A stretch of DNA of 64,000 nt from Candidatus Thiodiazotropha sp. (ex Monitilora ramsayi) (GTDB lineage Bacteria; Pseudomonadota; Gammaproteobacteria; Chromatiales; Chromatiaceae): the NCBI GenBank assembly GCA_025655595.1, contig JAHXIO010000003.1:186001-250000 (forward strand), read 5' to 3'. Under the pieces are notes generated by a model. It was not told where the DNA came from. It ran no database searches and saw only the letters and a list, made by a program, of their open reading frames with translations. A program made the translations under genes and the position numbers. Below, in pieces: positions 4,071 to 14,944 of this stretch; position 1 is the first letter of the stretch, and every line of letters begins with the position of its first letter.

Positions 4071-6956
4071 TTAAGAGAGTGGTGCGACACCGCGTCTCAT
4101 TGTATTTTCAGTGATGCACTTGGCCTCGACGAACTGCATCAGGTAATCCTTGCCGCCCGCTTTGTAGCCGATACCGCTCATCTGATGACCGCCGAAGGGT
4201 TGTCTGTTGACCAGGGCACCGGTTATGCCGCGGTTCAGATAGAGATTGCCCGCATGTAAAGCATGTCCGGCCAGTTCAAGATGTGCCGGGCTACGGGAGT
4301 AAATCCCCCCGGTCAGCGCATAGCGGGTAGAGTTGGCGATGCTGAATGCCTGATCGAGGTTCTTCGCCGGTATCAGCGCAACGACCGGGCCAAATATCTC
4401 CTCCTGCGCCAAAAAGCTATCTGGCTGGACATCCTTGAACAGGGTGGGAGGCACGTAATAGCCCTCGGTTTCTGACGGGACATCGGCTTGGCAATAGCGG
4501 TCTCCGTATGCGTTGCCTGCGTCAATGGCGTTGAGGATCCTCTTTCTGGCATGCTTATTGATGACCGGTCCCACCTCCGAATGAGATAGTGCCGGGTCGG
4601 TGATGATCAGGCTGTCAACGGCATCGGCCAATCGCCTACAGATCCTCTCATACTGCGATTCGACAACGATCACGCGGGAGCAGGCACTACACTTCTGCCC
4701 CTGAAAGCCAAACGCCGATTGCAGAATACCGCTGATAGCTTCATCGGGATCGGCGCTACTGTCGATGATGATCGCATTCTTCCCGCCCATCTCCGCGATG
4801 ACTTTCTTGAAGTGGTGTTGGTTGTCTGTAAATTCCGCGGTGTTTCTCTGTATCCGCTGGCCTACCGCCAGTGAGCCTGTGAAGGCGATCAGATTGACAT
4901 CGGGATGGCATACCAAATACTCACCGACTTCACTGCCGGCACCTGGAAGATAGTTGACGACACCGGGTGGAATGCCGATCTCATGCATGGCTTTGATCAG
5001 GTGTGCGGCAACGACCGGGGTATCGGAGGCCGGCTTTACAATAGCGCAGTTACCGGCGACCAGACTTGCCGAGAGCATGCCGGTCAAAATGGCCAGTGGG
5101 AAGTTCCAGGGCGGTACGATCAGGCAGACGCCTCTGGCCTGATAGCGGTGCAGGTTCTCCTCTCCCGGTACGTGGATCTGCCGATCGGTGAGCAGTGTCT
5201 CCGCCTGGTCCGCATAGTAGTTCAGAAAGTCGATGGCTTCACAGACATCGGCATCCGCCTCTCTCCAGTTTTTTCCCGCTTCAAAGATCTCGAGGGCTGA
5301 GAAGTAGTCCCGTCGTTGGTTTAGATGCGCAGCCGTCTTTCTCAAGAGGCTGGCCCGGTCCGATATCGATCTGTTTCTCCAGTCATTCAGAGAGGAGAGG
5401 GCGGCTGTGACTGCGGTATCGGCTTCTGTTTTTCCGGCGCAGGATGTCCTGCCGACACGAATTGCCGGATCGGCCGGGCAGAGAGATACGATCTTATCCC
5501 GGGTCTCCACCGAACGGCCTGCGATCACCAAAGGATGATCCTGGCCAAGCTCCCGCCGGACTGTTTCGATTGCCTGTTGGAAACGGCCCTGTTCATCGAT
5601 ATCGACAAACCGTCTCGTATCACAGTTTATAAATAGAGGGGTTGGTTCGTTTGCTTCGACATGGGTCTGTTGCGGTGATTTGAACAATTCAGCGGGAGGT
5701 GTGTTCCGCTGTTGCAATCTTTCGATGGCCTGACTGCTGGCATTCTCCAACAGACGCCTGACCAGATAGGCCATACCGGGAATCAGTCTACCGAAAGGCA
5801 GGTAGATGCGTAGCCGATAGCCGAGATCCACAAGTGCCTGCTGATAGTGCGGTGCCATGCCATAGAGCATCTGAAACTCAACCCGGTCGCGTGTGATATC
5901 CTTTTCCTCCATCAGAGCCATAGCGAGCGCAAGACTACGGGGGTTGTGTGTGGCAACGGCAAGCCTGATCCGTTGATGATGAGCGAGAAGGATTTCAAGG
6001 CCGCTCTCATAAGCGATGTCAGTCTCAGATTGCGTCGGCCAGACAGGACTTTGCCACCCCTTCTGTCTTGCGAGGACCATCTCCTGGTCCCAATAGGCGC
6101 CGCGAACCCAGCGGATATGAAAGGGAGTCTCCCTTCGGCTTGCCATATCGATAACGGTCTCCACATCATCATCCGCAGATGTCAGATAACTCTGCAGCGC
6201 CATGCCTATGCCATCCCATGTCTTAAACTGATCGTCAAACAGGATGGTTTTGAATACCGACATGATGAGCGGCTTCTTCTCAAAATCCTCCATATCCAGG
6301 GTGATACTGACCTTCTGCTCTCTGGCTTTGAGAAGTATGGGGCGGATCCTGTCCATGATCGCTGTGTGGTTCCCCGACAGGTTCAATACATCGATCCGCG
6401 GGCAGAGCGAGGAGAGCTTTAGGGAACACTGCAGGTCAGACTGCTCCTGTCTGGACAGGCTGTCGATAAGATTCAGATAGGCAGACTGATATCGATCGGC
6501 CTCGCGATCGCTCAGCGTCAGCTCGCCAAGCAGATCGAGAGAGACATGGCAGCCGGTTGATACGATTTCATCGATCGATTTTGCGATTTTATCCGGATCA
6601 TCACTGACCATGTATTGTGTGGCCAGCATCTCAACCGCGTGTCGGATACTCTTTGCCAATAGGGTATTGCCGAGCAACTTGCCCGAGGCAATCGCCACCT
6701 TTCCAAGCGTCGGCATCGGGAATTCGTCTTCTTTGAAGTACTCATTGAAAAGTTCGACGATATCGTGATCGTCAGTCAGTGTGGGCAGGACATCAACGAA
6801 TCGTAGTGCCCGGATGCGGAAGTCTTCATATTGATTGAGCTTCTCCAGAAAATGTTGGATCCAACCGGAAACCAGGCCCTCTCCCTTTTGAAGATTGTCG
6901 GCGCGTTCGAGTAACCGTTCGCCGTGTGTCAAGATCTGTTTCTGTCGGTCGGGCAT
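4071..6956 (-). CDS. putA: Bifunctional proline dehydrogenase / L-glutamate-5-semialdehyde dehydrogenase
   Basis: This 961-aa PutA oxidises proline to glutamate, using FAD then NAD+. Residues about 1-430 carry the arm and the PRODH barrel (RGAYWDQE, EFQMLYGM, RIYLPFGRLIPGM). About 470-950 carry the aldehyde dehydrogenase, with PPWNFPLAI, the Glu in EMGGKNAII, the catalytic Cys in GQKCSACSR and EIFGPVVAL. It is a short PutA without the N-terminal ribbon-helix-helix DNA-binding domain of the E. coli protein, so it should not autoregulate. It is divergent from an ornithine cyclodeaminase gene across 117 bp, which fits a shared arginine/ornithine/proline catabolic module. Confidence 0.96.
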   Translation of the reverse strand: MPDRQKQILTHGERLLERADNLQKGEGLVSGWIQHFLEKLNQYEDFRIRALRFVDVLPTLTDDHDIVELFNEYFKEDEFPMPTLGKVAIASGKLLGNTLLAKSIRHAVEMLATQYMVSDDPDKIAKSIDEIVSTGCHVSLDLLGELTLSDREADRYQSAYLNLIDSLSRQEQSDLQCSLKLSSLCPRIDVLNLSGNHTAIMDRIRPILLKAREQKVSITLDMEDFEKKPLIMSVFKTILFDDQFKTWDGIGMALQSYLTSADDDVETVIDMASRRETPFHIRWVRGAYWDQEMVLARQKGWQSPVWPTQSETDIAYESGLEILLAHHQRIRLAVATHNPRSLALAMALMEEKDITRDRVEFQMLYGMAPHYQQALVDLGYRLRIYLPFGRLIPGMAYLVRRLLENASSQAIERLQQRNTPPAELFKSPQQTHVEANEPTPLFINCDTRRFVDIDEQGRFQQAIETVRRELGQDHPLVIAGRSVETRDKIVSLCPADPAIRVGRTSCAGKTEADTAVTAALSSLNDWRNRSISDRASLLRKTAAHLNQRRDYFSALEIFEAGKNWREADADVCEAIDFLNYYADQAETLLTDRQIHVPGEENLHRYQARGVCLIVPPWNFPLAILTGMLSASLVAGNCAIVKPASDTPVVAAHLIKAMHEIGIPPGVVNYLPGAGSEVGEYLVCHPDVNLIAFTGSLAVGQRIQRNTAEFTDNQHHFKKVIAEMGGKNAIIIDSSADPDEAISGILQSAFGFQGQKCSACSRVIVVESQYERICRRLADAVDSLIITDPALSHSEVGPVINKHARKRILNAIDAGNAYGDRYCQADVPSETEGYYVPPTLFKDVQPDSFLAQEEIFGPVVALIPAKNLDQAFSIANSTRYALTGGIYSRSPAHLELAGHALHAGNLYLNRGITGALVNRQPFGGHQMSGIGYKAGGKDYLMQFVEAKCITENTMRRGVAPLS

Positions 6957-7073
6957 TGCCTGTCGGCCTAAACTGGAGCTCGTGTTAAGTATAGAAACCC
7001 AAACAGATTAATTTCTGTATGAAATAACCATTGCATCTCAAGGTCAAATGGAGAAATAGCGTGGGATATCGAT

Positions 7074-8961: not shown

Positions 8962-9222
8962 TTAAGGGGTTAGACCGGCTTTTAATGGAAATGTTAATCG
9001 GCTACTGAACCGATCACGGCCAAACGGATTGGTATGGCGGTATTCGAACAAGAGGTGGCTTTCTCTCAGTACACAATATGCACTCAGAGAAAACCACCCC
9101 TTGCGCAGGGCTTGCTTCTCTTTACGACGCTTCGCTTTTTGAGTTTTCTCATGCACGCCACCTTTGCGTAACAATGGATGGTTGTGCAAGAGATTGCGCG
9201 GTTTGTTTGAACGATTTTTCAT
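8962..9222 (-). CDS. Small basic protein downstream of rtcB
   Basis: This ORF of about 86 aa begins MKNRSNKPRNLLHNHPLLRKGG and is strongly basic. The ATG at 9222 is preferred over an upstream one because GAGG lies about 10 nt before it. The N-terminal 50 residues look constrained, while the rest may be spurious: a long hairpin (about 9055-9098) falls inside the frame. The motif HPLLRKGGVHEK is loosely reminiscent of ribosome-rescue factor ArfA, but I would not assign that. It is the last gene of the apparent rtcB operon. Confidence 0.55.
   Translation of the reverse strand: MKNRSNKPRNLLHNHPLLRKGGVHEKTQKAKRRKEKQALRKGWFSLSAYCVLRESHLLFEYRHTNPFGRDRFSSRLTFPLKAGLTP
9055..9098 (-). terminator. Long imperfect hairpin at operon 3' end
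   Basis: The arms GGTGGCTTTCTCT and AGAGAAAACCACC face each other across about 18 nt. On the minus strand a weak T-rich tract (TCTTGTT) follows. It could terminate or stabilise the rtcB operon transcript. It overlaps the 3' part of the small basic ORF. Confidence 0.4.
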
Positions 9223-9246
9223 GACGTTTTTTTCCTCTGTTAAATA

Positions 9247-9272
9247 AAGTGGGCCAGCGCCCTGGCCCACTT
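9247..9272 (-). other. 11-bp perfect hairpin between rtcB and next gene
   Basis: AAGTGGGCCAG pairs perfectly with CTGGCCCACTT around a 4-nt loop. The hairpin starts at the rtcB stop codon. There is no proper U-tract, so an RNA-processing or 3'-protecting stem is more likely than a terminator. Confidence 0.6.
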
Positions 9273-10470
9273 ATCCCTTGACACACAACACCTGCTTGAG
9301 TGTGTGCACCACTTCCACCAGATCGGTCTGGTTTTCCATCACCTGGTCGATATCCTTGTAAGCACCGGGGATCTCATCGATAACCCCTTTATCCTTACGG
9401 CACTCGACGCCTCGGGTCTGGGTCTCCAGGTCGGCCCGGTTGAACTGCTTCTTCGCCTTGGTTCGCGACATGCGACGTCCCGCACCGTGGGAACAGGAGC
9501 AAAAGGACGCTTCATTCCCCTTGCCCCGTACGATGTAGGACTTGGCGCCCATGGAACCCGGGATGATCCCCAACTCACCTTCACCGGCCCGGATGGCACC
9601 CTTGCGGGTAACGTAGACATCGGCGCCGAAGTGGTGCTCTTGCGACACGTAGTTGTGGTGGCAGTTGATCGCCTCCTTGGTAATGTCGAAGGGCGGCAGG
9701 TATTTGGCCAGGACATCCAGGATCTGCCGCATCATCTCGCGGCGATTGATCATGGCGTAGTCCTGGGCCCAACCGACCGCTTCCACATAGTCATCGAAGT
9801 GCTGCGCACCCTGTGTGAAATAGGCCAGATCCCGGTCGGGCAGATTGCCCAGCTGGTCTCCCATGTCACGACGGGCGAGATCGATGAAGTAACGACCGAT
9901 CACATTCCCGATACCCCGGGAACCGGAGTGCAGCATCACCCAGACATCGTCGCTCTCGTCGAGACAGAGCTCGATGAAGTGGTTGCCGCCACCCAGGGTC
10001 GCCAACTGGCGCACCCAGACGTCATAGGGCCGCTGCCGCTGCATCTTGCCGATACCCGGATGCTTGTCGAGAATCAGATCCAGCGCCTTGGCCAACGGTA
10101 TGATGGTGGACCGCTTCACCGGATCCCGCTCATGTATGTCGAATCCCACCGGGATGGCTTTTTCGATGCGGCTGCGCAGCTGTCGCAGGCTGTCGGGCAG
10201 CTCGGCTGCCGTCAGGGAGAGACGGATGGCGTTCATCCCGCAACCGATATCCACACCGACGGCCGCCGGCACGATGGCCCCCTTGGTGGGGATCACGGAT
10301 CCGACAGTCGCACCGATGCCTGTGTGGACATCGGGCATCGCGGCCACATGGTGGTGTACGAAGGGCATCCGGGCGACATTCGCCAACTGGTTCAATGCCG
10401 TGGATTCGGTATCCATGGTCCAGATGTGGACCGGCACCTTGCCCTTATCTAATGTTTGTAGGATAGGCAT
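9271..10470 (-). CDS. rtcB: RNA-splicing ligase RtcB
   Basis: This 399-aa ligase joins 2',3'-cyclic phosphate or 3'-phosphate ends to 5'-OH RNA ends using GTP and manganese. The metal and guanylylation residues are visible: VGVDIGCGM with the Asp/Cys ligands, GGGNHFIEL, LHSGSRGIG, NCHHNYVSQEHH and CSHGAGRR with the histidine that takes GMP. The ATG follows AAGGAG. It lies 12 bp downstream of the 315-aa unknown gene, in an apparent operon with a slipin and a tRNA-like leader. No archease or RtcA gene is adjacent. Confidence 0.97.
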   Translation of the reverse strand: MPILQTLDKGKVPVHIWTMDTESTALNQLANVARMPFVHHHVAAMPDVHTGIGATVGSVIPTKGAIVPAAVGVDIGCGMNAIRLSLTAAELPDSLRQLRSRIEKAIPVGFDIHERDPVKRSTIIPLAKALDLILDKHPGIGKMQRQRPYDVWVRQLATLGGGNHFIELCLDESDDVWVMLHSGSRGIGNVIGRYFIDLARRDMGDQLGNLPDRDLAYFTQGAQHFDDYVEAVGWAQDYAMINRREMMRQILDVLAKYLPPFDITKEAINCHHNYVSQEHHFGADVYVTRKGAIRAGEGELGIIPGSMGAKSYIVRGKGNEASFCSCSHGAGRRMSRTKAKKQFNRADLETQTRGVECRKDKGVIDEIPGAYKDIDQVMENQTDLVEVVHTLKQVLCVKG

Positions 10471-10482
10471 CTTGCTTACTCC

Positions 10483-11430
10483 TTATAGTTCAAGTTTATA
10501 AAAATTCGGCTCGACTTTCGCTCGACGCAGACGCTTGATGGTGCGTCTGTCGTTGAGCAGTCCCGGCAGCTGATCCGTCTGCTCGAAACAGAACTGTCTC
10601 GGCAGGGCGGTGTACAACGACCTGGGCGGTCCGTCACGGCGACTGATGCGTTTCAGGCAGTTGCCCGCCTCCCAGGTGTGGTACCAGAGCTGGCTCAGCC
10701 CCAATTCACGGCGTACGAAATCGATGGTCGCCGCCAGCATGGCCTGGCTCCACTCCTTCAGCAACGGTTCAACGAACTGCAGATATCGATGAGCCATGCC
10801 CGCCGTGGTGTTGAAGTCGGGATAAGCGATCGCCTCTTCTTCCGATTCACATCGAGTGAGCCTTCTGCGTAACCACGCAATGTCCCTGACCCAGTCACTC
10901 TGTATCTCCTCGACCAAAACCTCATCCCTGTCGAGATCGATATCGAGGCGAGCCCAGGCCATGGTCTCCCGGTAGTAGGAACGATCGCCTCTTTCCAGTT
11001 GCGGGTGTCCCCAGTAGTTGAAGACACCGTCACGGGTCGGGTGGATCGACTCCCGCAGGAGCGCATCGTGCTGGTGATTGAAATTGAGCCGTAAGACCAG
11101 GTTATAGCCAGGCCGGGACGTCTGTTGATAACGACCCGATCGACTTCCCCATACTCCGGTGGTGACCAGATAGGTAGTTCCCGGTTCCTGCCAGTAGCCG
11201 CTTAAGTCATTATTGGATATCTGCCCATCTCCGCAGCGACTCAGGAGAGGACTCATTGCAGGTTTGTTGAGCAGTCTGCCAAATCGGGATCCCTTCAAGG
11301 CGTGAATCGATCCATGACGATCGGCCGCAATCTTCAGCAATTGCACCGCATAGTAATCACGACAATAGCGGTAGAGGGTTCTCTCCTTGGACAGACAGGC
11401 CAACAGCTCCTGTATGTCGTTCCGGTCCAT
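10483..11430 (-). CDS. RtcB-operon protein of unknown function, 315 aa
   Basis: I do not recognise the family. It is a soluble protein rich in Arg, Trp and Tyr. Notable segments are DIDLDRDEVLVEEIQSDW, a conserved-looking acidic stretch, RDIAWLRRRL, and a C-terminal basic tail (RRTIKRLRRAKVEPNFYKLEL, slightly trimmed here by sense). There is no membrane segment or nucleotide-binding loop. The start has AAGGAG 10 nt upstream. Its position between slipin and rtcB suggests a role in the same RNA-repair process, perhaps RNA binding or a nuclease-like activity. That role is inferred from context only. Confidence 0.8.
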   Translation of the reverse strand: MDRNDIQELLACLSKERTLYRYCRDYYAVQLLKIAADRHGSIHALKGSRFGRLLNKPAMSPLLSRCGDGQISNNDLSGYWQEPGTTYLVTTGVWGSRSGRYQQTSRPGYNLVLRLNFNHQHDALLRESIHPTRDGVFNYWGHPQLERGDRSYYRETMAWARLDIDLDRDEVLVEEIQSDWVRDIAWLRRRLTRCESEEEAIAYPDFNTTAGMAHRYLQFVEPLLKEWSQAMLAATIDFVRRELGLSQLWYHTWEAGNCLKRISRRDGPPRSLYTALPRQFCFEQTDQLPGLLNDRRTIKRLRRAKVEPNFYKLEL

Positions 11431-11497
11431 CTTGATACTCCTTTTGGGTTTGGACGCCGTGTGGTTGATATCGGGTGGAGGGATAGTCTTCAGACAT
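11357..11497 (-). CDS. 46-aa ORF overlapping the start of the 315-aa gene
   Basis: An ATG follows an ideal AAGGAGTTAACC, nearly identical to the slipin site AAGGAGATAACC. The frame encodes 46 residues (MSEDYPSTRYQPHGVQTQ...) and ends inside the next gene, overlapping it by 74 nt in another frame. It may be a translational-coupling leader or a genuine microprotein. The Shine-Dalgarno is the evidence; the peptide resembles nothing I know. Confidence 0.45.
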   Translation of the reverse strand: MSEDYPSTRYQPHGVQTQKEYQDGPERHTGAVGLSVQGENPLPLLS

Positions 11498-11522
11498 GGT
11501 TAACTCCTTGCATTGGATAGAT

Positions 11523-11543
11523 GCCCGGCCAAATCGGCCGGGC
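11523..11543 (-). other. 8-bp GC hairpin after slipin
   Basis: GCCCGGCC and GGCCGGGC form a perfect stem with a 5-nt loop just downstream of the slipin stop codon. No U-run follows on the minus strand. It may separate or protect the slipin message within the operon. Confidence 0.55.
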
Positions 11544-11551
11544 GGTTGCGG

Positions 11552-12694
11552 TTAAACATTGATCTTGACGGTATCCTTGAGGACGCCGTCGAGACCGCCG
11601 AACACGGTCAGACGATCCACCTTGTCGGTCACCTTCTCGAGCGTCTCCAGCTCCTTCAGGCGCAGCAGGGTGGGGTTCTCATCCATCAGCTTTGCGGTGT
11701 TCAGCAGCGAACGGGTCGCTGCGGTCTCCTCGCGCCGCTTGATGACGTTGGCCTGTGCCGCCTTCTCAGCCTGGACCACCTGGTTGAGGATCTCCTTCAT
11801 CTCACCGGGCAGGATCACATCCTTGAGGCCGACGCTACGCAGCACAAAACCGTTTTCGGCAGCCTTGTCGGCGACCTTGTCGAACACCTCCCGGTCGACC
11901 CGCTCCTTGTCTTCCAGCAGCTTGTCGAGATCTCGGGAACCCACCGCCTGCCGCAGTGCGAACTGCAGCTCACGATAGATCCAATCCAGCGGCTGTTGCA
12001 GCTGTGACCGCGCCTTGACCGGGTCGACCACTTGGTACTGGGCACCCAGATTCAGACGCAGGGAGACCTTGTCCCGGGTGAGGATCTCCTGACCCTGGAC
12101 CTCCATGGCCTGAACGCGGGTATCCAGCTGCTCCACGGTGACGTGGCGCTTGACCGCCCAGAAGGCGTGGAAACCGGGCTTCAGAGTGTGGACAAACTCA
12201 CCGTCCACCACCAGCAGACCGACAGACTGATCCATCACCTCGGCGGTATAGACATAGGCCTGCATTTCGCGAGCCACCACACCGCCGCGGGTACGGAACA
12301 GGGCATCCGCCAGCTCCTTGGGCACCGGCAGATCGTTCTGCAGATCGATCTGCTCTACACGCAGCGCGTAGGGTACCTTCCAGTAGACCTTGCGCTCACC
12401 CGGGGCAACGAGTTCTACGAACTTGTCGTCCCGGTAGACCAGACCGATCTGCCGATCGGACATGACCACCTTCTCCAGATAGGGGGTCAACAGATCGCCG
12501 GCGCTCTGCATCAGCAGTTCGGCGTTCTTGTTGGCACATACCGCCTGGCCCAGATCGTGCAGTTCGATCCGCAGGCGACCGAAGGGGTCGAAGTGGCGAT
12601 AGACACCGGGCTCCAGCACCTGGATCAGCTGACTGTCACGAAACAGAAAACCGCGCTCGTGCTGGGCCACAACGATGCGCTTGTAAGTAAACAT
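11552..12694 (-). CDS. Slipin / SPFH (band 7) domain protein
   Basis: This SPFH protein has 380 aa from the ATG behind AAGGAGATAACC; a longer frame begins at 12739 but lacks a ribosome-binding site. It has no N-terminal membrane segment, unlike classic slipins. The N-terminal half shows three tandem units (about residues 7-36, 76-105 and 152-181), each with a GL(L/V)xxD...V..L.PG.....W/F pattern. The SPFH segment follows (about 185-330), then a coiled-coil-like tail. Slipins of this sort are known companions of RtcB operons; the molecular role is not established. It is the first large gene after the tRNA-like leader. Confidence 0.9.
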   Translation of the reverse strand: MFTYKRIVVAQHERGFLFRDSQLIQVLEPGVYRHFDPFGRLRIELHDLGQAVCANKNAELLMQSAGDLLTPYLEKVVMSDRQIGLVYRDDKFVELVAPGERKVYWKVPYALRVEQIDLQNDLPVPKELADALFRTRGGVVAREMQAYVYTAEVMDQSVGLLVVDGEFVHTLKPGFHAFWAVKRHVTVEQLDTRVQAMEVQGQEILTRDKVSLRLNLGAQYQVVDPVKARSQLQQPLDWIYRELQFALRQAVGSRDLDKLLEDKERVDREVFDKVADKAAENGFVLRSVGLKDVILPGEMKEILNQVVQAEKAAQANVIKRREETAATRSLLNTAKLMDENPTLLRLKELETLEKVTDKVDRLTVFGGLDGVLKDTVKINV

Positions 12695-12979
12695 GGTTAT
12701 CTCCTTGTTGTTGATTGATTTTGCCTTTTCGAAGCGCACCCGACAGGATGCACTTCGGAAAAGCGCGGCCCCACACCCACAGCGCGGGTCTGAATGGGCC
12801 GATGGGTGGGTGATACCACGGCCACGGTCACTTCCCGGACACTCCCTTGTCCGTGAGGCTGGGTGATGGCGGTATCACTGACCCATGCGGCACATGCCAA
12901 ACGCGGGCGCTGCAGGTGCTGCAGGACAACCACCGAAGAATCTCTCTTCGATACCTGCGGGGGCGTTGCCTGGATAGTG

Positions 12980-13025
12980 AGTCAAATGCGGATTCGAACC
13001 GCGGGGCTTATCAGGCCCTGACCAA
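12980..13025 (-). ncRNA. D-arm-less mini-tRNA-like element, anticodon GAU
   Basis: The element begins immediately after the CCA end of the tRNA-Met-like element. It has an acceptor-like GTCA/TGAC pairing, a 4-bp anticodon stem GGGC/GCCC around loop CTGATAA (Ile GAU), and a T arm GCGG-TTCGAAT-CCGC. There is no D arm and no room for one. It cannot be a normal tRNA. It may be a decoy, a processing signal or a ligase substrate. Confidence 0.6.
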
Positions 13026-13099
13026 TGGTTGAATAGGAGGATTCGAACCTCCGTCCCATCGATTATGAGTCGATTGCTCTACCCACTGAGCTATATCCA
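13026..13099 (-). tRNA. tRNA-Met(CAU)-like element with 6-bp acceptor stem
   Basis: The D arm (GCTC-AGTGGGTA-GAGC), the 5-bp anticodon stem ATCGA/TCGAT with loop CTCATAA, the 5-nt variable loop and the T arm GGAGG-TTCGAAT-CCTCC are all canonical, and CCA is encoded. The acceptor stem gives only six pairs before A-CCA; a seventh would be a G-A mismatch with no discriminator base. The anticodon loop equals that of elongator tRNA-Met. The defect and the context suggest a tRNA-like regulatory or repair RNA rather than a housekeeping tRNA. Confidence 0.7.
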
Positions 13100-13211
13100 C
13101 GTGGTGTCTTCAAGGACCTCCAGTGCGGTACACAGGATTGCATGGCAAGCTGCGCCAGCGGGCCCTGGGAGACCCGACCGCTGTCACTCAAGTACCCAAT
13201 GAGGACTCGGT

Positions 13212-13243
13212 TCACCCGTCGGGAGTCGAACCTGTACGGGTGA
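13212..13243 (-). ncRNA. Acceptor/T-arm minihelix
   Basis: A perfect 8-bp stem (TCACCCGT/ACGGGTGA) encloses a T-arm-like GG-TTCGACT-CC. The 3' side continues with AACC instead of ACCA. It looks like the top half of a tRNA without D and anticodon arms. It lies directly after the stop codon of the frameshifted SEC-C frame. Confidence 0.5.
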
Positions 13244-13310
13244 TAATTATGTTCTGAAATAGTCATTTCGATTCGTGCCGTCAAAGCGTTTGCTTTGTAG
13301 ACAGCACCCC

Positions 13311-13448
13311 TTAAAAGCGCTTCCCGGAGCCGCAGGGGCAGGGGTCATTACGGCCGAGCTTTTCGGTCAGATCCTTTTCGCCATGAACCCTACGAACACC
13401 GCGCTTTACCTGTGTCTCAGAGGGATACCCCTTGCGCCGTTTGCTCAT
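13311..13448 (-). CDS. Small SEC-C zinc-motif protein, interrupted by a frameshift
   Basis: The frame of 45 codons starts [18 protein letters not shown] and ends [14 protein letters not shown]-stop. The SEC-C motif normally continues with a Cys-Cys (or Cys-His) pair. Here the sequence reads CGC TTT TAA GG. A +1 shift at TTTT gives [13 protein letters not shown] and extends the frame to a stop at 13247, about 66 aa. The truncated product lacks two of the four zinc ligands. This is either a programmed +1 frameshift, a pseudogene or a sequencing error. The gene sits inside the tRNA-like leader, and its Shine-Dalgarno is weak. Confidence 0.6.
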
Positions 13449-13527
13449 GGTTTCGAAAGGATACGAAATCGTCGTTGTCTCTCTTCGTTTTTATGTCGCA
13501 CCTCCAGATCGTGTGCTGTAGTCATGA

Positions 13528-13604
13528 TGGTAGGGATGGTGAGATTCGAACTCACAACCCACAGGGTCTAAGCCTGCTGCGTCTGCCAGTTGCGCCACAT
13601 CCCC
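13528..13604 (-). tRNA. tRNA-Leu(UAG)-like element lacking the long variable arm
   Basis: The acceptor stem GGGGATG/CATCCCT (one G-T) ends in A-CCA. The D arm GGCGCAACTGGCAGACGC is the leucine-type signature. The anticodon stem GCAGG/CCTGT carries loop CTTAGAC (UAG, reads CUA), and the T arm is GTGAG-TTCGAAT-CTCAC. The variable region is only GGGTT, whereas tRNA-Leu needs a long arm for charging. It is thus a well-folded but atypical tRNA-like RNA. Confidence 0.7.
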
Positions 13605-13893
13605 AGTACGCAGAACAACATAGCGGGCAGGGGAGCCCGATTCGTCGTTCACCACTCAGGGATCTCGCAATCCCTCCCCTGGTTTAGTCCGCATCCGAAT
13701 TGAGTGCGGACCGGTGCTTTGGGTATCCGTGAGAAACATCCCCCCTGGCACTGCACTGTTGTGCTTGCCGATACGGCTCGAACAACAACGCTACCTCTTA
13801 TCCCTGGCGAGTATGAAACAGTCGCCATTCCCGGCCCGTAACCGAGAACGGGGGGACGAGGCTTGCTTGGTATCTGCCCCAAGCGGCCAAATC

Positions 13894-13920
13894 ATGCCCT
13901 GCCAAAAACGGGCAGGGCAT
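13894..13920 (-). other. 10-bp perfect hairpin next to boxA
   Basis: ATGCCCTGCC and GGCAGGGCAT pair perfectly around a 7-nt loop. No U-tract follows on either strand. It lies about 19 nt downstream of boxA in the transcript, where rrn leaders also carry stem-loops. Confidence 0.6.
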
Positions 13921-13938
13921 ATCGATAGATTTCCAAAT

Positions 13939-13950
13939 TGTTAAAGAGCA
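13939..13950 (-). promoter_or_regulatory. rrn-type boxA antitermination site
   Basis: The minus strand reads TGCTCTTTAACA followed by ATTTGG, which matches the ribosomal-operon boxA core. BoxA recruits NusB/NusE and prevents Rho termination on untranslated RNA. Here it heads the untranslated tRNA-like leader of the slipin-rtcB operon. No rRNA gene is nearby. Confidence 0.75.
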
Positions 13951-13983
13951 CCCCGAATTTCTCATCGAGGTTTTCGAGGGCAT

Positions 13984-14019
13984 AAAAAAACCCCCGGGGT
14001 CTGCACCAACCGGGGGTTT
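13984..14019 (-). terminator. Intrinsic terminator between small ORF and boxA
   Basis: On the minus strand AACCCCCGG pairs with CCGGGGGTT around a ~12-nt loop and is followed by a T-run. It would end transcripts of the 49-aa ORF, or act as an attenuator for the downstream leader. Confidence 0.8.
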
Positions 14020-14075
14020 CTTCCGGAAGGTGCCGACGATTCAGGACACCTTCCCGCAACTGTTTGCAAAAGGCG

Positions 14076-14225
14076 TCAGGTCATACCGAGTTTGTCCTCG
14101 TTGCCGAGTAAGGAGACGACCGGTTCTGCTTGATTCAACCGATACGCCACAGGCACGGAGACACAAGCCAACCCTGGTTGCAGGTCAGCGAATGTATCGA
14201 TGGTGTGGTTGCGTATTGAACTCAT
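14076..14225 (-). CDS. 49-aa ORF upstream of the tRNA-like leader
   Basis: The frame begins MSSIRNHTIDTFADLQPG and ends KLGMT. It lies between a good promoter (14278-14305) and an intrinsic terminator, divergent from the XRE regulator. The Shine-Dalgarno is weak. It may be a leader peptide or a small partner of the regulator. No family is recognised. Confidence 0.5.
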   Translation of the reverse strand: MSSIRNHTIDTFADLQPGLACVSVPVAYRLNQAEPVVSLLGNEDKLGMT

Positions 14226-14277
14226 AGTCAGTTTCTTTTTCCGGTGTAAAAAAGTTTCCCCTCGAACTTGGTGCGCA

Positions 14278-14305
14278 AGTATAATCGCCGATCCTGGAAA
14301 TGCAA
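14278..14305 (-). promoter_or_regulatory. Sigma-70-like promoter, minus strand
   Basis: The -35 is TTGCAT (14305-14300) and the -10 is TATACT (14283-14278), with a 16-nt spacer. It would drive the 49-aa ORF and, by readthrough, the tRNA-like leader. It overlaps the first candidate start codon of the XRE gene, so the regulator could bind here. Confidence 0.65.
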
Positions 14306-14944
14306 GAGTATTTTTTGCAAATGACAAAAAAGATTTCGACCTCCTCACGCACCAAAGATCCGTTCGCCGTCAAGATCGGCAAACGTATCGCACAAGCCAG
14401 AAAGATGGCCGGCTTCAGTACGGCAAAAGCCTTTCGCAAGAAGCTGCCCAGGTGGCCGGAGAACCGGCTCTCCTGGTACGAAGCCGGCTATTCCATGCCC
14501 CATCCCAGCCATGTGGAGACCATCGCCAGGGTGACGGGAACATCCACCTGTTGGATCATGTTCGGACTGGGTCCCATCCGCTCGGGCGAGCGGGATCTGC
14601 AAGCAGTGCGGCATCAGAATCTGGTGTTTCTGTTTCGCGAAGCGGAAGAGCAATCGGCACAGGCGCTGACCGAGTTTCTACTGTTGGTTAAGCTCGAGGC
14701 CAGGCAGTTGGCGGAATATATTGACAATCCGTTTAAGCATATCGGAGAGAGACTCGCCAGAAGAATTGAAAAGGCGAGCGGCAGGGCGAAGCAATGGCTT
14801 GATGAACAGCATATTGAATCGGATGGTCTGTGTGGCTCCTTTCCTGACGATCTGCGTGAGTTGATGACGCTATATTCAGAGATGGATGAGAAGCGCAGAA
14901 AATTATTGGTCGCAATGGCACGCACCGTATCGGAACAGGATTAG
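14300..14944 (+). CDS. XRE-type helix-turn-helix regulator
   Basis: This protein has 214 aa from the first ATG; a second ATG at 14321 is equally plausible, and neither has a strong Shine-Dalgarno. The N-terminal HTH (about residues 22-85, KIGKRIAQARKMAGFSTAKAF, trimmed by sense) resembles Cro/CI-type domains. The C-terminal half is helical with no recognised ligand domain. It is divergent from the tRNA-like leader and rtcB operon and is its likely regulator, in place of the sigma-54 activator RtcR found in many such operons. Confidence 0.8.
   Translation: MQEYFLQMTKKISTSSRTKDPFAVKIGKRIAQARKMAGFSTAKAFRKKLPRWPENRLSWYEAGYSMPHPSHVETIARVTGTSTCWIMFGLGPIRSGERDLQAVRHQNLVFLFREAEEQSAQALTEFLLLVKLEARQLAEYIDNPFKHIGERLARRIEKASGRAKQWLDEQHIESDGLCGSFPDDLRELMTLYSEMDEKRRKLLVAMARTVSEQD

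Follow-up and report, generated by a model that had tools for sequence, protein, structure and literature searches.

A putative ribosome-read transcription attenuator ahead of an RtcB RNA-repair operon in Candidatus Thiodiazotropha

A leader ORF, competing hairpins, and a terminator precede the operon

We describe the leader of an RNA-repair operon in Candidatus Thiodiazotropha sp. (ex Monitilora ramsayi), which lies in a 64,000-nucleotide stretch of contig JAHXIO010000003.1 (positions 186,001 to 250,000; here called the window) in an assembly of 4.68 Mb, 46 contigs, and 99.98% completeness (G000). The operon encodes a slipin, a tiny open reading frame (ORF), a 315-amino-acid protein (u315), RtcB, and a small basic protein, in tandem on the minus strand where the initial annotation had placed them; it is preceded by a 1.6-kb leader, with an XRE-like regulator on the opposite strand. 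Judging from the sequence, we consider it likely (probability about 0.7) that the operon is controlled by transcription attenuation that is read by the ribosome. The elements concerned are as follows.

14076-14225, minus strand: 49-codon leader ORF; all 10 window-lineage leaders have an ORF of 44 to 49 codons in this place
14067-14078, minus strand: attenuator segment 1, with its start at the stop codon of the leader ORF; complementary to segment 2 (p 0.031 in the window)
14025-14054, minus strand: attenuator hairpin 2:3
14004-14032, minus strand: possible antiterminator, CACCTTCCGG (14032-14023) with CCGGTTGGTG (14013-14004); weak in the window alone (p 0.096)
13984-14018, minus strand: intrinsic terminator between the leader ORF and all downstream parts, nearly invariant in 10 leaders

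Among the window-lineage leaders (nine same-genus loci plus L016; loci and genomes carry our own L and G labels), the ORF, the hairpin, and the intrinsic terminator are present in all ten, between the XRE gene and the tRNA-like RNAs, and the U tract of the terminator ends 93 to 96 nt past the leader stop codon. A short, apparently translatable ORF thus stands ahead of an intrinsic terminator and before the structural genes, and two mutually exclusive pairings are predicted, 1:2 and 2:3, one of them placed where a ribosome would block it. Loci L029, L030, and L031, in which u315 is 39 to 40% identical to that of the window, carry a version with a 52-codon leader ORF of different sequence. The leader peptide itself is weakly constrained (dN/dS 0.31 to 1.10 in 11 of 12 chosen pairs, one being undefined), values that led us to reject the leader ORF as a strongly conserved peptide. 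Since the position of the stop codon is nonetheless kept, selection seems to act on translation and not on the peptide. No run of regulatory codons, as in the amino-acid-sensing subtype, was seen on inspecting the leader peptides. The leader ORF and terminator were absent from the initial annotation, as were the boxA, the SEC-C mini-ORF, and the conserved structured RNA described below.

In the mechanism that we propose, transcription would start upstream of the 49-codon ORF, probably under XRE repression. Ribosomes that reach the stop codon would cover segment 1, upon which segments 2 and 3 would pair, the terminator would form, and the repair genes would stay off. When ribosomes stall upstream or do not load (damaged translation, broken rRNA or tRNA), segment 1 would pair with segment 2, and segment 3, thereby freed, would pair with the 5' side of the terminator and let polymerase read through. 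We infer both this polarity and this signal.

Alternative pairings center on the leader stop codon

With the search for segment 1 beginning 12 nt before the stop codon, the best 1:2 pairings start at -12 to +4. Over 15 non-redundant leaders this pairing gave a Fisher p of 2e-14 (window, 0.031), and pairing of the terminator with the stretch preceding it exceeds that of shuffles as a set (14 leaders, Fisher p 1e-7), values that are optimistic because the leaders are related. A sliding test without the limit on segment 1 covered 17 leaders, with segment 2 set by hand. Complementarity to segment 2 peaked at the stop codon, with 0 of 5000 permutations as low, and the mean best pairing energy was -13.2 kcal/mol near the stop versus -5.9 kcal/mol in equally wide upstream blocks. 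Fourteen of the 17 leaders have no equally strong upstream window, the exceptions being L121, L054, and L045. Segment 2 begins 13 to 31 nt past the stop, a distance at which a ribosome terminating there would not cover it.

The layout recurs in one branch of gammaproteobacterial RtcB

In 369 genomes drawn from the class, rtcB was found at 45 places (E <= 1e-100) in 40 genomes, and at 10 of these RtcR is encoded on the same contig no more than 5 kb away. A FastTree phylogeny rooted at the midpoint, whose support values were not inspected, took in 30 of the 45 places and four extra loci. It placed 21 surveyed rtcB genes in the window's branch and 9 in another, and G257:C174 was added to the window's branch by identity (63% over the matched part), giving 22 members; the remaining 14 places, among them 8 of the 10 beside RtcR, lay outside the tree. 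None of the 22 adjoins RtcR, and G257, G264, G325, and G329 carry an above-cut-off RtcR elsewhere in the genome. A short ORF, hairpin, and terminator before rtcB or its first partner gene were found in 14 of the 22 (the window, G010, G222, G280, G167, G263, G056, G329:C20, G098, G025, G264:C87, G245:C82, G128, and G257:C174), and outside the window lineage the layout shows no evident sequence similarity to that of the window. In the other branch the layout was seen in 0 of 9 genes examined, up to 1.5 kb upstream. As background, a terminator lies 20 to 120 nt before the start codon in 13 of 193 genes from 20 loci; 3 of these 13 genes are rtcB and 1 is u315.

Four named-strain loci, out of 36 plasmid-collection records with RtcB, were examined outside the 22-gene count. 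The locus of Acinetobacter baumannii (L148, 3680-4001), whose rtcB is 66% identical, has a 9-codon leader ORF, a hairpin, and a terminator, with a 1:2 pairing p of 0.015.

Control without RtcR

The initial annotation had seen no RtcR and no sigma-54 site and had noted an XRE-type regulator opposite the operon, all of which was borne out. RtcR (PF06956) is found in 0 of 22 genus genomes, with a positive E. coli control, and in 14 of the 369 class genomes, 12 of them above the cut-off. No match to the sigma-54 consensus, strict or loose, occurs within 120 nt upstream of 20 leader ORFs, that of the window included. No RtcA domain was found among the scanned operon proteins of the window, the rest of the genome being outside this search. 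The attenuator would replace RtcR and sigma-54 in the window's RtcB branch. The candidate elements upstream of the leader ORF are the following.

14300-14944, plus strand: divergently encoded XRE-like regulator, which may repress the leader promoter
14278-14305, minus strand: candidate sigma-70 leader promoter, TTGCAT-16-TATACT, found by eye
14266-14280: ACTTGCGCACCAAGT, a palindrome that reaches the -10 region and is a candidate XRE operator

The XRE-like ORF has HTH_31/HTH_3 matches under the Pfam cut-off and weak DicA-like and phage-repressor profiles. A syntenic homologue is present in L016, L021-L029, and L031, and also in L141 at 42% identity. The palindrome's CTTG-N5-CAAG recurs at the corresponding position of nine of the 10 window-lineage leaders (L021 lacks it), and CAAG-N3-CTTG occurs in L029, L031, and L141; overlap of the palindrome with the promoter would fit XRE repression of the leader. 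Sigma-70 promoters upstream of 20 leaders, related ones included, beat shuffles as a set (Fisher p 2e-8), and six of the 20 have a site with 11 of 12 matches.

Points against attenuation, and a second promoter as the alternative

Besides the relatedness of the leaders, several observations weigh against attenuation. Taken singly, the 1:2 pairing exceeds 0.05 in L119, L120, L121, L131, and L141 (0.083, run apart). The terminator pairing (3:4) falls below 0.05 alone in 5 of 20 leaders (L046, L052, L119, L131, and L045), of which L052 and L119 are related, and its p is 0.096 in the window, 0.75 in L029, 0.58 in L023, and 0.25 in L148; because it is significant alone in so few leaders, we set our confidence in the attenuator slightly lower. 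The hairpin stretch of the window folds no better than shuffles (p 0.25). The terminators came from an automatic scan, but leaders, ORFs, and segments were picked by eye with knowledge of the target, and the leader set is biased as a result. Upstream, the best sigma-70 site near the window ORF has 8 of 12 matches (p 0.82 versus shuffles), and the proposed promoter is weak by consensus and was missed by the promoter scan. The layout is missing, in the stretch examined, from 8 of the 22 branch members (G314, G325:C41, G039, G308, G356, G183:C105, G345, and G312), although some of these follow another gene and were not traced further upstream, and G183:C105 has the ORF and hairpin with no U tract. 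It is also missing from 3 of the 4 named-strain loci: Candidatus Thiodictyon and Methylomonas lack it by eye, and the Allochromatium rtcB lies 41 nt after another gene.

In a rival explanation, the 49 codons would form an independent small gene closed by an ordinary terminator, and the operon would use a second promoter after that terminator, under XRE or other control. The strong terminator behind the ORF would suit such a gene, as would the lack of a consensus site at the proposed leader promoter in the promoter scan. However, that scan picked up nothing sigma-70-like on the minus strand from 14500 to slipin, and in eight other leaders the U tract starts 29 to 64 nt before the rtcB start codon, leaving scant room for a promoter. 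A separate gene would also sit poorly with the weak constraint on its peptide and would leave the 1:2 pairing at the stop codon without a reason. We therefore regard a second promoter as unlikely and continue to favor attenuation.

boxA and a conserved structured RNA

Two conserved elements follow the terminator.

13933-13949, minus strand: boxA, GCTCTTTAACAATTTGG
13686-13888, minus strand: conserved structured RNA of 203 nt, located after boxA

With at most one mismatch, GCTCTTTAACAATNNRG occurs three times in the 4.68-Mb assembly: before 16S, before 23S, and here. The operon copy is the only one outside rrn, the other two lying in the rrn leader and the rrn spacer, and a reversed boxA control gave 0 matches. 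The core is identical to the copy in the genome's own rrn leader, which marks the site as a putative rrn-type boxA. In rrn operons boxA mediates antitermination; the present copy resembles those in its core and differs from them in preceding a protein-coding operon with a long untranslated leader. Here boxA would carry polymerase over about 1.2 kb of mostly untranslated RNA and shield the transcript from Rho. Across the genus, GCTCTTTA is present in 7 of 9 leaders, with degenerate copies in L024 and L027, and L029 and L031 carry a similar CTTTAACAATTCGG.

The structured RNA has 85% mean column identity over eight loci and folds 3.5 standard deviations below shuffles (z -3.5; 0 of 200 shuffles as low). 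Since its helices are mostly invariant (double changes in 6 of 59 pairs; covariation term -0.84), the case for it rests on conservation and folding energy. A model built from the eight loci found the RNA in 9 of 22 genus genomes, always at the operon (its own eight plus G011), and also in L016; under strict filters it occurs in 2 of 369 class genomes, both of the same genus. At L028 (G011), the structured RNA is interrupted at approximately 1700-1980 by some 260 inserted nt that contain inverted repeats, as seen by eye. No Rfam family matched it at gathering level. Weak Rfam matches to PyrR, NsiR1, ClpQY_promoter, sR36, and Plastid-ycf2 were all under their own cut-offs and were rejected; those to PyrR and NsiR1 cover the terminator, and that to Plastid-ycf2 is the other strand of tRNA-like 2. 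In the proposed mechanism, the read-through transcript would release the structured RNA and the tRNA-like RNAs, and slipin, u315, and RtcB would be made.

tRNA-like RNAs and a SEC-C mini-ORF

Between the structured RNA and slipin lie the following features.

13528-13604, minus strand: tRNA-like 1, with UAG anticodon, short variable arm, and encoded CCA (58.6 bits; match 13604-13531)
13311-13448, minus strand: 45-amino-acid SEC-C ORF (PF02810, 28.9 bits; cut-off 20.4)
13212-13243, minus strand: T-arm-like hairpin, an inverted repeat whose T-arm shape was seen by eye
13027-13100, minus strand: tRNA-like 2, with CAU anticodon loop and imperfect acceptor end (63.4 bits; match 13100-13028)
12980-13023, minus strand: truncated tRNA-like element (anticodon-like arm and T arm), found by eye

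The initial annotation described a 1.29-kb leader packed with tRNA-like folds and suggested that the leader RNAs may be substrates, sensors, or decoys for RtcB, roles that are possible on the present evidence. The figure of 1.29 kb spans the stretch from terminator to slipin, the whole leader measuring 1.6 kb. Two of the folds score as tRNAs by ARAGORN and Rfam; the packing was overstated, with one further truncated element and one T-arm-like hairpin by eye, and we rejected a packed tRNA array since two elements alone are above cut-off. The leader RNA probably does sense something, but the sensing element is best explained by the attenuator, upstream of the tRNA-like RNAs. As for loss of the leader in relatives that keep the operon, a check that the initial annotation had proposed, the attenuator and structured RNA are kept in all nine genus loci (one insertion) and the tRNAs are partly lost.

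In five of the nine genus loci ARAGORN finds no tRNA and the attenuator is nonetheless present, which argues that the tRNA-like RNAs are not needed for control. tRNA-like 1 is found in the slipin-bearing loci L023, L025, and L026 as well, its anticodon being UAG or CAG across the four loci including the window. Elements similar to the truncated one occur in L023, L025, L026, L017, and L141. The 45-amino-acid ORF, between the two tRNA-like RNAs, is nearly just a SEC-C zinc motif and is conserved in L021, L022, L023, L025, and L026. Among loci with a recognized leader, ARAGORN or Rfam places tRNA-like RNAs before slipin in 8 of 9 slipin-bearing loci (the window, L023, L025, L026, L017, L141, L054, and L055), the ninth, L045, showing a T arm only (by eye), versus 3 of 18 loci without slipin in the stretch (L016, L029, and L031). 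As related loci were counted separately and leaderless loci omitted, this association is a pattern and not a test.

Elsewhere the genome has 44 other tRNA matches. ARAGORN could read 43 of them, and between them they serve all 20 amino acids; all five Leu types are represented, with a class II Leu(UAG) among them, and three tRNAs carry CAU. The nearest of these genomic tRNAs are 71% and 79% identical to the two tRNA-like elements. No Arg(UCU) tRNA is among the 43. In the 44th match (37 bits; G000:C4:569923-570031; L067), the anticodon arm is interrupted by about 40 inserted nt that include a strong hairpin, and the element occurs in 1 of the 22 genus genomes, its own. Either a pseudogene or an interrupted tRNA may be present here, and the latter would be of interest in an RtcB-bearing bacterium. 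Two loci with rtcB of the other branch also have tRNA sequences nearby. In L138 (G291:C3), 16 ARAGORN tRNA genes (10170-13501) stand directly before rtcB, which is followed by an HNH protein 46% identical to that of L031, resembling in a single locus the link of trn, rtcB, and HNH in Anabaena; in L137, a T arm with CCA like a tRNA 3' half lies just upstream of rtcB (by eye).

In tRNA-like 2, 91% of pair cells are kept over eight loci, against at most 49% in slid controls, and 12 of 21 pairs change on both sides. A decoding tRNA is expected to keep its anticodon, together with an intact acceptor. In tRNA-like 2 the outermost acceptor pair is standard in 1 of 8 loci and the next pair in 4 of 8, and the loops read CUCAUAA, CUUUAAC, AAUUUAA, CUUUUAA, a 6-nt loop, CGUUUAA, CUAUUAA, and CUCAUAA, for anticodons (by eye) of CAU, UUA, UUU, UUU, none assigned in the 6-nt loop, UUU, AUU, and CAU. 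That the RNAs are genuine decoding tRNAs for stress is thus distinctly unlikely, even though both pass the Rfam tRNA cut-off, tRNA-like 1 keeps an intact acceptor and CCA, and L138 has its 16 tRNAs before rtcB. In Anabaena, moreover, a 26-tRNA operon shares its repressor with rtcB (PMC10272220). But the other genomic tRNAs already serve all 20 amino acids, and tRNA-like 1 does not have the long variable arm seen in the genome's Leu tRNAs. Being extra to tRNAs for all 20 amino acids, and with covarying stems and a changing anticodon loop in tRNA-like 2, the tRNA-like RNAs fit a bait or scaffold better than decoding. They might be bait or reporter substrates for anticodon-cleaving nucleases and RtcB, the damage being either the signal or absorbed, a possibility to which we give some weight while doubting it. 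Stems and elbow are kept while the loop varies, and the slipin association agrees with it; yet no nuclease is known at the locus, related loci inflate that association, and the five tRNA-less genus relatives show that control does not require these RNAs. Bacterial Y RNAs such as YrlA, a tRNA-like RNA that adjoins rtcB in Salmonella (PMC7790460), offer a further parallel in having a tRNA-like module beside rtcB. A Ro60/Y RNA-type repair module is nevertheless extremely improbable and was rejected: the TROVE (Ro) protein is in 0 of 22 genus genomes (Deinobacterium control positive), no Y RNA family is among the Rfam matches, and the present RNAs have tRNA-family scores and accompany slipin.

Combining these threads with attenuation, we put forward, tentatively and with considerable doubt, a two-layer device in which the attenuator would sense failed translation and the read-through RNA would yield tRNA mimics, conserved in their stems and diversifying in their anticodon loops, as sacrificial bait for RNA-cutting toxins and as substrates of the RtcB encoded on that same RNA, with slipin as the partner of the mimics.

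Operon genes and their conservation

The genes of the operon are as follows.

11552-12694, minus strand: slipin (Band_7), from the domain scan
11357-11497, minus strand: tiny 46-codon ORF that overlaps the u315 start; weakly conserved, mostly inside the overlap
10483-11430, minus strand: u315 (315 amino acids), an unnamed family that frequently adjoins rtcB
9271-10470, minus strand: RtcB (PF01139, 439 bits), the sole RtcB match in its genome
8962-9222, minus strand: small basic protein, likely start 9222, N-terminal part conserved with motif RKGGVH

The PF01139 domain spans residues 28-399 of RtcB, consistent with a full-length ligase domain. Nine same-genus loci share the order XRE, leader, u315, rtcB, small protein, and slipin is present in four of them (window included in both counts). 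For the u315 of the window, no family was found in Pfam, NCBIfam, or PADLOC and no PDB chain by profile; the plasmid collection gave no match, and PHROGs gave matches at E>0.2 only. Matches to u315 occur in 13 of 40 genomes searched (its own included) and in 13 of the 369 drawn from the class.

Variants of this arrangement were seen at individual loci. In L032 (G006), u315 is split over two overlapping frames (6001-6575) with no XRE or slipin match in the stretch, so that the operon there is degraded or misassembled. In L141, an ORF resembling the small basic RKGGVH protein sits in the leader rather than after rtcB (by eye). In L047, a u315 at 7051 has no nearby rtcB and follows a terminator 23 nt before its start. 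An HNH protein lies between leader and u315, or beside a divergent RtcB, in L029 (3730-4263), L031 (5155-4622), L030 (5140-4607), and L050 (7753-7217); PADLOC profiles cover its HNH part only.

Comparison with known systems and significance

The trp and his leaders are leader-peptide attenuators. The arrangement proposed here shares a short ORF, competing hairpins, and a terminator with them and with the ermC leader, which is described in PMC2965389 as sensing a general slowdown of translation. It differs from these leaders in that its segment 1 sits at the stop codon and a further segment is predicted to pair with the terminator; in addition, no single-codon run was seen, the target is RNA repair, and the peptides are very diverged. 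The rtcBA operon of E. coli and Salmonella is under RtcR (PMC7790460; PMC9650030), and E. coli rtc is induced by ribosome-targeting antibiotics (PMC12606134). Our operon would similarly place RtcB under stress control tied to translation or RNA damage; unlike rtcBA, it has no RtcR, no sigma-54 pattern, and no RtcA among the scanned operon proteins, and it combines a putative attenuator with another RtcB branch. As PMC10272220 describes, the 26-tRNA operon and rtcB of Anabaena are repressed by the same regulator, TrcR, translation-blocking antibiotics induce the trn array, and rtcB and slipin rise in a trcR mutant. As in the TrcR regulon, tRNAs, rtcB, slipin, and HNH genes (the last in L029, L031, and L138) are linked here without RtcR; unlike it, with its ribbon-helix-helix repressor and scattered genes, the present system combines an XRE-like gene and a putative attenuator within a single operon, where tRNA-like RNAs take the position of the tRNA array. 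By analogy, the proposed control may parallel the induction of E. coli rtc and Anabaena trn by antibiotics through another route.

No report of rtcB attenuation was found among the papers listed in the literature searches, a comparison that did not extend to Burroughs and Aravind (2016) or to the paper on bacterial Y RNAs, and as far as we found, only TrcR in Anabaena has been described as controlling bacterial RNA repair outside RtcR systems. The locus provides defined tRNA mimics, a structured RNA, and the u315 family as possible partners of RtcB. If our reading is right, an attenuator that responds to translation failure would be a simple answer to how one RtcB branch in Gammaproteobacteria is controlled, and it would help to explain why repair genes are linked with tRNAs in distant bacteria.

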